DNA of 64,000 nt from Streptomyces roseochromogenus subsp. oscitans DS 12.976 (lineage in GTDB: Bacteria > Actinomycetota > Actinomycetes > Streptomycetales > Streptomycetaceae), in contig NZ_CM002285.1 of the NCBI RefSeq assembly GCF_000497445.1, positions 9,330,961 to 9,394,960 of the forward strand, given 5' to 3'. The number at the start of each line of letters is the position of its first letter. The stretch's first letter is position 1. The notes below the pieces were generated by a model, which saw only the letters and a list, made by a program, of their open reading frames with translations, made no database searches and was not told the DNA's origin. This document shows positions 106 through 8,629 of the stretch, piece after piece. A program made the translations under genes and the position numbers.

Positions 106-648
106 TCAACTCCGGCGCCGAATCGTGATCTGTGGGTCCCAGCGGAAGAAGCCCAGTCGATTCTTACCGCTGAGGAGCTGGAAGAAGAATTTGTACCGGT
201 CGCTCCCTGACCTCTGGACGTGTGCGGCCCAGTAGTGCCCCAGGACGGCCTGCGTTTCGAATTCGTGGTCTGTTTCGGATACCGGGAGCGGAAGAAGAGC
301 GTCAACGATCACAGGTTGAAGGTCGCTGATGAGCTTCCTGTCAGTGCGGACCACGTACTTGTACAGCAGGACGCTGTAGTCGAAGCCGAGTGACAGGGTT
401 GTCTCGCGCCACCTGATCACGTCTCCAGGATCGGCTCTGACGCAAAGCCGGTGTGCCGACTGGCCGATCACGCCGTCCTGCTGGGTCGTCAGGTGGATCA
501 GTGCCGGGTCGACCGGCGTCGGTCGGGCGGGGTCCTGCGAGGGGTTCGGGTATCGCTCGACGATAGTGAAGGCATCGAATGCGATCAACACATTGACGAC
601 ACGCAGGCATTCCTGCGCAGTGCAACCTGCGGGGATTGCTGTGATCAC
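106..648 (-). CDS. AidA/PixA-family (inclusion body) protein, copy 1
   Basis: 180 aa with a GTG start at 648 and a GGAGGG ribosome site just upstream. The whole length matches the AidA/PixA family, named from Xenorhabdus PixA inclusion protein and Ralstonia AidA. It opens with the family hallmark VLIAFDAFTI followed by YPNPSQDP and ends in a KNRLGFFRWDP block. There is no signal peptide or membrane segment, so it is probably cytoplasmic and may self-assemble; its biochemical activity is not known. A second, clearly related copy lies upstream on the same strand, separated by a strong hairpin, so the two are probably separate transcripts. A tandem duplication is the simplest origin. The family call is firm, the function is not. 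Confidence 0.85.
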   Translation of the reverse strand: MITAIPAGCTAQECLRVVNVLIAFDAFTIVERYPNPSQDPARPTPVDPALIHLTTQQDGVIGQSAHRLCVRADPGDVIRWRETTLSLGFDYSVLLYKYVVRTDRKLISDLQPVIVDALLPLPVSETDHEFETQAVLGHYWAAHVQRSGSDRYKFFFQLLSGKNRLGFFRWDPQITIRRRS

Positions 649-1365: not shown

Positions 1366-2068
1366 GGTTCCTCTCCTTTTCTCTGCCGCTCTGGCGACGC
1401 TTGCCGGGTCGCGCGACGAGCATGTAGATCTGGGGACCGGGGAACTCTGGAACTCCTTTCGCGCGAATATCTTCCACGGCTGGTGCGCGGATCACGAACC
1501 CTGGGTCACTTTTCGTTGCGGCGAATATTCAGCTACACAGAAGCTCGCAACCTGCCGTTGGTGGAACACGAAGAAGAATTACAGCTACTAGATACGCTAA
1601 CAAGCACGGTATCCGGACATGCGTGAGAATTGGACGTGAAAACCCCCTATGAAGTCACGGTGATGAAGCCTGAAATATGCCATCAGCCAAGGCCGTGCAG
1701 AGGACCGGCTCTCGCTTGTGTCACGCCAGGCGCTCTCTTCTCTTCTGTGAGCGGGGCGTGTTCCGGGCGGGATGAGGGAAGTACTGTGTGGCGACGGGGT
1801 GCGTACAAGTTGCGCTGACAACAACGAAATTAGGATCGGTCAGAACCGGCGAGGTCATGCGCATATGACAACAGCAGAGCGTTCTGTGCACCGCAGCCCA
1901 GGACTTGCGCCGCTCGATCAGCGGCGCGGTGATTGTCCGTGGCGCCGGTTGACACGACACGCCGACCGCACCATCGGGCTCATGCACTTCGCCTTTGCTG
2001 GCCGCGAAACCGGGTGAGGTTATCCGGAGCCGAGAAGCCATGGCCATGACCCGTCACCCGTTGCGACG
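1366..2068. other. Gene-poor stretch, nothing recognised
   Basis: About 700 bases without a convincing gene on either strand. The open frames present have no recognisable domain or credible start. The part next to 1365 should hold the promoter of the PixA-family gene. Confidence 0.4.
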
Positions 2069-2094
2069 GCGGCACCTTCGGGAGTACCGGGCCA
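2069..2094 (+). repeat. 26-bp direct repeat, copy 1
   Basis: Matches 2485-2510 in the same orientation with one mismatch (position 2075). The core is CTTCGGGAGTACCGGGCCA. The two copies bracket the MITE-like element with unequal spacing (91 bases on the left, 66 on the right), so they are not its target duplication. Origin unknown. Confidence 0.7.
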
Positions 2095-2185
2095 AGGAGC
2101 GAGTTCACGAATCCTGAATCCCAAGAAATCCGCAGGTCAACGTGCTGGACAGGCGTCAAGACGCTTCCCTCGCCAGGGAGTCGGG

Positions 2186-2418
2186 TGTGCCGGGACACGG
2201 TAGTTGTCACCGAACAACGTCCACGACCTGGTGGTCGACGGCGGCGGGACACGGTGGTTGTCACCAGCGGGACGCGGTTCTTGTCACCACGGCGCTGAGG
2301 ACAGCGCGTATGTCACCGGTTTCACGACGCCGACCAGCGTCGACGACTCGGCCGTGCGTTATCGCCGCTCGCGGTGACAGAAACCCTGTCCAGGTGGCAA
2401 CTGTCGTGTCCCGGCACA
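2186..2418. mobile_element. 233-bp MITE-like element with TIRs and 5-bp target duplication
   Basis: The ends are inverted repeats starting TGTGCCGGGACACG. The first 14 bases are identical in both ends, and 23 of the first 26 match. The element begins TG and ends CA and is flanked by TCGGG on both sides (2181-2185 and 2419-2423), a perfect 5-bp target duplication. Inside each end the subterminal motif GGGACACGGTnnTTGTCACC recurs: three good copies on the left (2192-2211, 2246-2265, 2269-2288), a weaker one at 2298-2317, and inverted copies at 2373-2391 and 2393-2412. Several repeats inside each end, TG/CA termini and a short duplication are features of IS21-type elements. It has no coding capacity, so it looks like an internally deleted, non-autonomous derivative. 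The IS21 assignment is inference. Confidence 0.8.
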
Positions 2419-2484
2419 TCGGGCAACAGGTGGCGACGCTTCACCGCAGGCCAAAGGTGATTACGGAGAGTTACTTTTCACTTC

Positions 2485-2510
2485 GCGGCAGCTTCGGGAG
2501 TACCGGGCCA
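2485..2510 (+). repeat. 26-bp direct repeat, copy 2
   Basis: Second copy of the repeat at 2069-2094. It ends 34 bases before the stop codon of the cyclophilin gene, which lies on the other strand, so it sits in that gene's 3' region. Confidence 0.7.
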
Positions 2511-2544
2511 CCATGCGGACCGTTGAACCTCGCAGAACACCCAG

Positions 2545-3045
2545 TCAGAGCTGACCGGATTCGTCGATGACGATCTTCTGCGAGGTCTTCCCTGACTGAC
2601 TGCCGAAGGCCTCGATCTTCTTCACCACGTCCATGCCGCTGGTGACCTCGCCGAATACGACGTGCTTCCCATCCAGCCATGAGGTCACCGCGGTGGTGAT
2701 GAAGAACTGCGATCCGTTGGTGTTCGGGCCAGCGTTGGCCATGCTGAGGAGGCCGGGCCGGTCGTGCTTGAGCTTGAAGTTCTCGTCCGCGAACTTGGCG
2801 CCGTAGATGCTCTTGCCGCCGGTTCCGTTGTGGTTGGTGAAGTCGCCGCCTTGGAGCATGAACTGGGGAATGACCCGGTGGAAGGTCGAGCCCGCATAAC
2901 CGAAGCCCTGCTCGCCAGTGCACAGCGCCCGGAAATTCTCCGCTGTTTTGGGCACCGTGTCCGCGAAGAGCATGAACGTGATCCGCCCGAGAGGTTGACC
3001 GTTAGCACTGACGTCGAAGTAGACCTGGGGATTAGACGCTGACAT
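2545..3045 (-). CDS. ppiA: Cyclophilin-type peptidyl-prolyl cis-trans isomerase
   Basis: 166 aa, the usual length of a single-domain cyclophilin. The start is ATG at 3045, chosen because the family begins near [13 protein letters not shown] and a GAAGG site lies about 10 bases upstream; an in-frame start at 3060 would add five residues. Signature blocks are [20 protein letters not shown] (active-site arginine in FHRVIP), [33 protein letters not shown] and KHVVFGEV. It catalyses proline isomerisation during protein folding. There is no signal peptide, so it is cytoplasmic. It appears intact and stands alone. Confidence 0.95.
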
Positions 3046-7843: not shown

Positions 7844-8629
7844 ATGAGTTGGCAACATGCCTGGTTGGCTGATTATGTGCTACCGGCTGCGGTGAGCGCG
7901 GTGATCGCGTGGGTCGGGCTGGCGCGTGAGTTCTCCGGCAAGGGCCGGCTGCTGGGCAGCTGGGCGTCGTCCGGTCTGGTGTTGCTTGTGCTGGCATTGA
8001 TGGGTGTGGTGGCGGCCGGCGCGGTGGTGCTGCTGCCGCACGCGGCGTCCATTCCTCCGGTGGTTGCGGGTGCTGCGACGGGAGCCACCGCGCTGCCGCG
8101 GCGGAAACAGGATGAGACAACGCAGCCGTACGTCAAGTTCATGACACTGGGCATCGCCCTGGCCAGGGAGCGGCTGGTGCAGCGCGTGCACCTTGACGCC
8201 TGTACCTGGTCGGACCGCTTTCTTCGCGGTATCGAAACGTCTGCCCAGCTCAGGGTGTTCGTCCACGATCTCAAGCTGTACCTGCTGGAGCGGCATCCGC
8301 TCGCTGCCGAGACCAAGGTGATCACCGCCATCTATACGGATGTGGAGAGGGCGATCGACGTGGCGCTGGACGTGCAGACAGGGATCGATGAGGCATGCCG
8401 TCAGGCCGAGCGCGAACCGACGGGTGACGAACTCATCGCCCGGCGCCAGGCGTTCGGCACCGCCCTCGCGCAATGTGGACACCTGCTGCGCTTCGCGTAC
8501 GTTCACGGCCGCCGCAGCGAGAACGAAGAACTTAAGACCCTGCGTGCGAAGGCGATGTCCGACGACGCGTTCCACAGTCCGGTTCTGCCACCGCAGCGTC
8601 GCTGGTTCGACCGCTGGCTGACCCGCTGA
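7844..8629 (+). CDS. Membrane protein of unknown function
   Basis: 261 aa from the ATG at 7844; a G-rich site precedes it and the N-terminus then begins right at the membrane region. Two transmembrane segments are visible, about residues 8-24 (YVLPAAVSAVIAWVGLA) and 36-62 (GLVLLVLALMGVVAAGAVVLL). They are followed by a soluble cytoplasmic-looking domain of about 180 residues that is rich in charged helices (RERLVQRVHLD, DLKLYLLERHPL, IYTDVERAID). I do not recognise the family. It ends 58 bases before the convergent XRE gene. An alternative start at 7682 would add 54 residues of unlikely composition. Confidence 0.65.
   Translation: MSWQHAWLADYVLPAAVSAVIAWVGLAREFSGKGRLLGSWASSGLVLLVLALMGVVAAGAVVLLPHAASIPPVVAGAATGATALPRRKQDETTQPYVKFMTLGIALARERLVQRVHLDACTWSDRFLRGIETSAQLRVFVHDLKLYLLERHPLAAETKVITAIYTDVERAIDVALDVQTGIDEACRQAEREPTGDELIARRQAFGTALAQCGHLLRFAYVHGRRSENEELKTLRAKAMSDDAFHSPVLPPQRRWFDRWLTR

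Follow-up and report, generated by a model that had tools for sequence, protein, structure and literature searches.

A 233-bp non-autonomous element with Tn7-like ends in Streptomyces roseochromogenus and its relatives beside tpg and on linear plasmids

The window, i.e. the whole stretch of DNA that was analysed, comprises 64,000 nucleotides from Streptomyces roseochromogenus subsp. oscitans DS 12.976 and harbours a 233-bp element whose features are collected in Table 1. The 3′ end of a peptidyl-prolyl isomerase gene lies 126 nt from the element, and two mechanically called ORFs, at 1980–2264 (minus strand) and 2142–2570 (plus strand), overlap or traverse it. Two neighbouring ORFs further out, at 832–1365 and 106–648 (minus strand; 177 and 180 aa), resemble each other in the manner of tandem paralogues. 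A preliminary description of the locus had reported terminal inverted repeats matching at 23 of 26 bases, a TCGGG duplication on both flanks, and at least five copies of a 20-bp subterminal motif in opposite orientations at the two ends. Direct reading confirmed the pairing of 23 of 26 positions (2186–2211 against 2393–2418) and a perfect 5-bp duplication, and six copies of the ~20-bp GGGACACGGTNGTTGTCACC motif were found, four on the left (one of them weak, at 74%) and two abutting copies on the opposite strand on the right. Since TCGGG stands at both 2181–2185 and 2419–2423, the span 2181–2423 noted earlier corresponds to the 233-bp element plus both duplicates.

Table 1. Features of the element and its immediate flanks in the window.
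Feature	Position	Strand	Remark
Non-autonomous element (MITE), 233 bp, very probably Tn7-like	2186..2418	+	left end at 2186 (TGTGCCGGGACACG tip; sites at 0, +54 and +77 nt), right end at 2418
TCGGG target-site duplication, left copy, 5 bp	2181..2185	.	direct reading
TCGGG target-site duplication, right copy, 5 bp	2419..2423	.	direct reading
Left terminal inverted repeat TGTGCCGGGACACGGTAGTTGTCACC	2186..2211	+	25/26 identical to left tip of Catenulispora rubra Tns element
Right terminal inverted repeat, includes site R1 (2393-2412)	2393..2418	-	sequence
Site L1, predicted TnsB binding site	2192..2211	+	motif copy; putative function
Site L2	2246..2265	+	54 nt from L1, spacing as in C. rubra element
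Site L3	2269..2288	+	77 nt from L1, spacing as in C. rubra element
Site L4, degenerate	2298..2317	+	74% to reference copy
Site R2, abuts R1	2373..2392	-	motif copy
Conserved ~52-nt block	2458..2511	.	starts 40 nt beyond right end; putative Tn3-family identity

Among inverted 26-bp pairs spanning 150–400 nt in the 64-kb window, 23 had at least 20 matches and the element's pair was the best; the other pairs with at least 21 matches were shifted echoes of it, and among the best 15 of the 23 only the element's pair had identical 5-bp flanks. The best inverted pair in 20 simulated windows (first-order Markov) reached 19–22 of 26 matches, compared with 23 of 26 in the real one. Short length, inverted-repeat ends, target duplication and kinship with a transposase-bearing element are features of MITEs, and the 5-bp duplication and arrays of ~20-bp sites, unlike at the left and right ends, are features of Tn7-like transposons. 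On the two plasmids examined, the conserved ~52-nt block found on the right directly adjoins a resolvase gene or overlaps a fragment of a Tn3 transposase, and a recombinase accompanies it in other matches listed; because of these neighbours, the block is probably the relic of a Tn3-family end forming the landing context, the distance of +40 nt to this putative recognised site being known for the window copy from a single case. A 26-bp direct repeat (96%), at 2069–2094 and 2485–2510 and thus 416 bp apart, flanks the element, and as its second copy lies within the block, two Tn3-family end fragments are probably present here.

The preliminary description had further proposed that the element is MITE-like, non-autonomous and recurrent in other Streptomyces, a proposal that occurrence at a sole locus would contradict. 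Three further end-to-end relatives, one of them aligned with a gap, were found in S. virginiae, S. scopuliridis and the same-genus genome G304. Pairwise identity among the four copies is 70.8–77.7% over 217–235 columns, with indels in the alignment, and their flanks are largely unrelated. The S. virginiae relative (235 bp, linear plasmid) is 77% identical to element positions 1–233 and has GGTGG at both sides; S. scopuliridis carries a 221-bp form on a linear plasmid, with limits set by hand, and G304 a 235-bp form, the duplications of these two copies being imperfect. The lineage is rare: at E≤1e-8, with two candidates scored in each genome among the matches listed, a search of 392 same-genus genomes detected it in the window genome and in G304 only. 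The phage collection gave no match to the element. Several copies per genome, a hallmark of MITEs, were not seen in the 9.78-Mb genome, which holds one copy only; neither a second element nor any other end with at most three mismatches to the left tip was found there. The single copy and the two positive genomes of 392 together speak against a burst; the element functions in the manner of a MITE without having been amplified.

An end-pattern scan of one genome per species returned 110 stretches. The taxa represented among 80 of them were Streptomyces, Kitasatospora, Nonomuraea, Actinomadura, Catenulispora, Wenjunlia and Actinacidiphila, along with an unclassified actinobacterium (two contigs) and a metagenome bin labelled Mucilaginibacter, which is suspected to be misbinned because it has a tpg flank. 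Three contigs of 7.0–7.7 kb (L075, L123 and L159) contained a full Tns set end to end. L075 is a 7.45-kb element of Catenulispora rubra encoding TnsA-, TnsB-, TnsC- and TniQ-like proteins, whose left end has further sites likewise at +54 and +77 and whose right end is of the window type, with two abutting sites. Local alignment of the window with C. rubra gave a score of 81 for the left end and 56 for the right end, against maxima of 37 and 25, respectively, in 2000 single-base shuffles. The ends of the window element, which might have matched no transposase-bearing element, are thus shared with a complete one, and because both the ends and the site spacing are common to the two, the parent of the window element is, by its sequence relationships, Tn7-like. 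The closest transposase-bearing match belongs to the order Catenulisporales and not to Streptomyces. In C. rubra, the outer flanks pair as GTATC/GTATC and GCTCT/GCTCT when read across broken contigs, and the genome probably contains two insertions with 5-bp duplications.

In Pfam searches of L075, TniQ (4e-20) and AAA_22 exceeded the cut-offs while TnsA-N, rve and TniB (2.5e-5 to 4e-4) fell below them; in L123, a Streptomyces relative, TniQ and AAA_22 exceeded the cut-offs, TniB was just above, and the TnsA-like N domain and rve were below. The L123 TnsA matched NCBIfam TnsA_like_Actin above cut-off (1.3e-40). The C. rubra TnsB is 65–72% identical to that of four Streptomyces relatives and matched TnsB chains in the PDB, at 1.5e-9 those that we take to belong to CRISPR-associated transposons and at 1.4e-6 those of the Tn6677 transposon, and its TnsC had no PDB match at E≤0.01. 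A CRISPR-associated reading was considered, as tnsB/tnsC are described as adjoining CRISPR in some Streptomycetaceae (PMC12231136), and was rejected on the scan of ten proteins from L123 and L075, none of which matched a cas family.

End pairs were compared across the window, two plasmid loci, 12 same-genus genome loci and the 110 stretches, with five duplicate contigs and L033 excluded. Of 43 pairs with readable flanks, 24 showed an exact 5-bp duplication and 4 a one-base difference; the other 15 differed at at least two positions and may, on an unproven reading, be tandem or nested insertions. The same test shifted by 1–8 nt gave 1, 0, 0, 0, 0, 0, 0 and 0 exact duplications, with a chance expectation of about 0.04. 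The 24 elements with exact duplications range from 233 to 3,126 bp and include those of the window, S. virginiae and NBC_01207; when the Tns proteins of L123 were searched by tblastn at 1e-8 against a database that included the window, Tns pieces were present inside one of them, L087 (TnsA and TniQ), an evident deletion intermediate. Cargo was sampled as 20 ORFs, for the most part the longest one of an element that passed a codon-periodicity filter. The 18 elements sampled were 14 of these 24 together with L057, L064, L082 and L110, which show a single mismatched base or have an end that is weaker or an alternative one. Pfam matches were obtained for 12 of the 20 ORFs (8 had none) and included phosphotransferase, racemase, Fic, alpha/beta hydrolase, DUF4232, AAA_33, epimerase and NUDIX families, an aldo-keto reductase with TetR and flavodoxin-type neighbours, and a mycothiol-dependent isomerase domain; no transposase family was matched by any of the 20. 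The NBC_01207 cassette (2,724 bp, ~2.7 kb) is flanked by GGTGG on both sides. Its sole large ORF (L035 3279–5618), in a cassette free of Tns genes, encodes a 779-aa protein with two P-loop regions, AAA/NACHT-type matches, NCBIfam ATPase_Sll1717 at 1e-47 and partial PADLOC matches. Elements abutting with exactly 5 bp between them were seen at five junctions in four loci (L054 twice, L063, L069 and L135; duplicates excluded), and a further junction, in L168, has 4 bp; such tandem junctions are what successive insertions into a single site would leave.

Comparison of the 400-nt outer flanks of 185 ends (duplicates counted, 33 ends unclassified) gave 393 matching pairs, 222 of them right–right and 25 left–left. 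Among the matches listed, flank homology often begins about 36 nt out, and the flanks commonly share the 3′-terminal part of a single gene, of which one tested copy encodes Tpg, the telomere-protecting terminal protein (NCBIfam, 7.8e-88). Tpg homology was detected in the flank of 30 of 88 right ends and 0 of 52 left ends (tblastn, duplicates removed), as well as 5 of 29 unclassified ends, proportions that are not natural frequencies since the scan pattern favours right ends. All 30 flanking genes run in the same direction, and at 26 of the 30 the extrapolated tpg stop lies 22–45 nt from the element (34–37 nt in 17 of the 26), e.g. in L058 at 7846–8403. One Tns element that is complete, L270 from Streptomyces sp. 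SA15, also occupies a tpg-adjacent position; it has a 4-bp TCCA in shifted register and no exact duplication. The position beside tpg is, as far as flanking sequence can tell, an apparent homing site for right ends of the wider family. Tn7 itself encodes tnsABCDE, inserts at attTn7 downstream of glmS with a 5-bp duplication, and has asymmetric arrays of ~20-bp TnsB sites. By analogy, the arrangement described here looks like that of Tn7 and TnsD, with tpg replacing glmS.

The S. virginiae element and the cassette of NBC_01207 occupy a different landing site, both at the identical base position between homologous flanks (82% identity on the left, 86% on the right). NBC_01207 has a second, empty copy of this site with a single GGTGG, and plasmids of S. 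vietnamensis and S. avidinii likewise have the site empty with one GGTGG, as does NBC_00513 with GATGG; in S. goshikiensis, the outer 18 bases of a right end remain at the site, as recognised by eye where the end model did not flag them. The search for empty sites that had been proposed for the window element thus succeeded for its S. virginiae sister, and the window locus itself, covered in 0 of the 60 other genomes searched, yielded no empty counterpart. The G304 copy has only its right flank in common with the S. virginiae-type site, at 74% over 191 nt from 36–37 nt out or 71.5% over 200 nt from 22–23 nt out. The landing block occurs in 70 plasmid records, 69 of them Streptomyces, and in most of the matches listed is free of any annotated gene; topology is known for eight of these records, and all eight are linear. 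In L032 (5273–5478) and in plasmid hits H55–H84, this landing site takes the form of a conserved block of ~200 nt with GTTGCACC repeats. Searched against Rfam, the S. virginiae-type site gave a single chance-level match (E 0.64).

Across the genus, TnsC was present in 15 of 150 genomes at E≤1e-40, and 12 TnsC loci in 11 of these had related ends at five, none with the window tip, and no model-recognised ends at seven. The window genome lacked TnsC at the same threshold, and its six TnsB-like matches are only 30–32% identical. A helper in the same genome was sought at five of these six places, where no related end was found, and looking for end pairs bordered by 5-bp duplications yielded weak ones only (12–13 of 18). 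The window genome also contains a distant tnsABC-like set (about 24–34% identical) at G000:C1:10162–13889, with copies near C1:9650392 and C2:106169. At each chromosome end, as on the second contig, these sets are within a few kb of tpg, and their ends were not found. With a single copy and no cognate transposase found in the genome, the window copy is probably dormant unless a helper enters.

The preliminary description had put forward an IS21-like parentage for the element, pointing to an IstA relic at 55 kb. IS21 elements combine a DDE integrase-type transposase with an ATPase and likewise have multiple terminal repeats and short duplications, and the genome holds 13 IstB-profile matches, 11 of which exceed the cut-off, as might be expected were the element an IS21-derived MITE mobilised by IstA/IstB. 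However, we know of no IS21 element with TnsA and TniQ, both of which are carried by the three end-to-end contigs of the present family. None of 18 IS21-type loci examined in the genome scored above 3.1 against the end model, whereas the two ends of the element scored 40.8 and 30.5 (at most 6.2 elsewhere among the best eight scores of the window). One multi-copy IS21 type ends in unrelated sequence, and the true ends of a second may lie outside the readable stretch. No ends shared with an istA/istB-bearing element were found in the readable sequence at these loci, and an IS21 parent was rejected on that sequence, 25–50 bases beside most copies being unread. As the ends match TnsA/TnsB/TnsC/TniQ elements and, where readable, are unrelated to those of IS21, the IS21-like parentage was not borne out, and we regard it as extremely improbable.

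Two other explanations remain within the Tn7-like family. A large element may have shrunk by deletion in place, never having been mobile at 233 bp; the single copy, the failure to find a helper in the genome and known deletion derivatives such as L087, with its TnsA and TniQ remnants, would suit such decay. Against this, internal sequence is 71–78% identical across four copies of comparable length whose flanks are largely unrelated, which requires that the short form moved or spread, and decay in place is accordingly very improbable. The main mobiliser might alternatively belong to a Tn7-like subfamily other than the C. rubra type, for example the Streptomyces TGAGCCGAAGC elements, acting across families: TGAGCCGAAGC tips are commoner among the ends seen, the TnsB of these elements is 73% identical to that of C. 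rubra, and the ends share TAGTTGTCACC cores. The window tip nevertheless differs from the listed TGAGCCGAAGC tips at 4–9 of 26 positions and from the C. rubra left tip at one, so that mobilisation chiefly by such a subfamily is possible but rather unlikely. The element at 2186–2418 is thus very probably a minimal non-autonomous Tn7-like transposon, in which the two ends of a TnsABC-TniQ element are joined with almost nothing between them. On this view, the six ~20-bp sites would be bound by TnsB provided in trans; cleavage at the TG/CA tips would fall to TnsA and TnsB, and TnsC together with TniQ would be responsible for target choice and for a joining step that leaves a 5-bp duplication. An internal deletion in a C. 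rubra-like element probably gave rise to the ancestral copy, which went on to found a spreading lineage of its own; what remains of it in the present genome is an orphan, probably immobile.

Bacterial MITEs and mobile insertion cassettes are short units that carry no gene or a single cargo and are bounded by the ends of a relative with a transposase. To our knowledge, the known bacterial MITEs derive from single-transposase ISs; unlike these, the window element has a parent that would need a four-protein Tn7-type machine. The family resembles Tn7 in its 5-bp duplication, its asymmetric TnsB-type site arrays, its combination of TnsA, TnsB, TnsC and a TniQ-domain protein, and, for many right ends of the wider family, the position next to an apparent target site. 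Unlike in Tn7, no gene was recognised inside the window copy, relatives are found next to tpg or at a non-coding block of linear plasmids instead of at glmS, and the proteins are only distantly related to solved TnsB chains. In the portions available, Benler et al. 2021 (PMC8649781) describe an Actinobacteria-dominated TnsB clade with no experimentally characterised member, to which the present elements may belong. As far as that text extends, binding-site arrays were used to mark transposon boundaries, transposons were found via Tns genes with median sizes of 14–29 kb, and the terms nonautonomous or MITE and terminal protein or tpg do not occur; since surveys of this kind rely on transposase genes, transposase-free members would easily be missed. 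By gene content alone, and from the excerpted account, Tn7706 of Rhodococcus erythropolis (tnsA, tnsB, tniQ and tniB among 19 genes) is a like gene set in an actinobacterium (PMC12915292). Within open-licence full text, where an absence carries little weight, no reports of Tn7-like MITEs in Streptomyces, of tpg targeting or of transposase-less Tn7-like cargo were found.

Together, the observations make it slightly more probable than the contrary that Actinobacteria with linear replicons harbour a two-layer Tn7-like system, in which a small number of TnsABC-TniQ elements act for a larger set of cassettes that lack a transposase (0–3 genes, 0.23–3.1 kb). A TniQ/TnsD-type selector would place these cassettes ~36 bp downstream of tpg or at the conserved non-coding block of linear plasmids, tandem copies would accumulate at sites that travel with telomere-bearing DNA, and the window element would be the zero-cargo form of its lineage. 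A 233-bp relic thereby leads to a little-noticed family of small cassettes with ordinary genes and Tn7-like ends in Streptomyces and relatives. If confirmed, the family would add a new target, beside tpg, for Tn7-type selectors, would connect Tn7-like mobility with linear replicons, chromosomes as well as plasmids, and would give the engineering of antibiotic-producing hosts natural ends of minimal size (about 103 + 46 bp) and possibly an insertion site.
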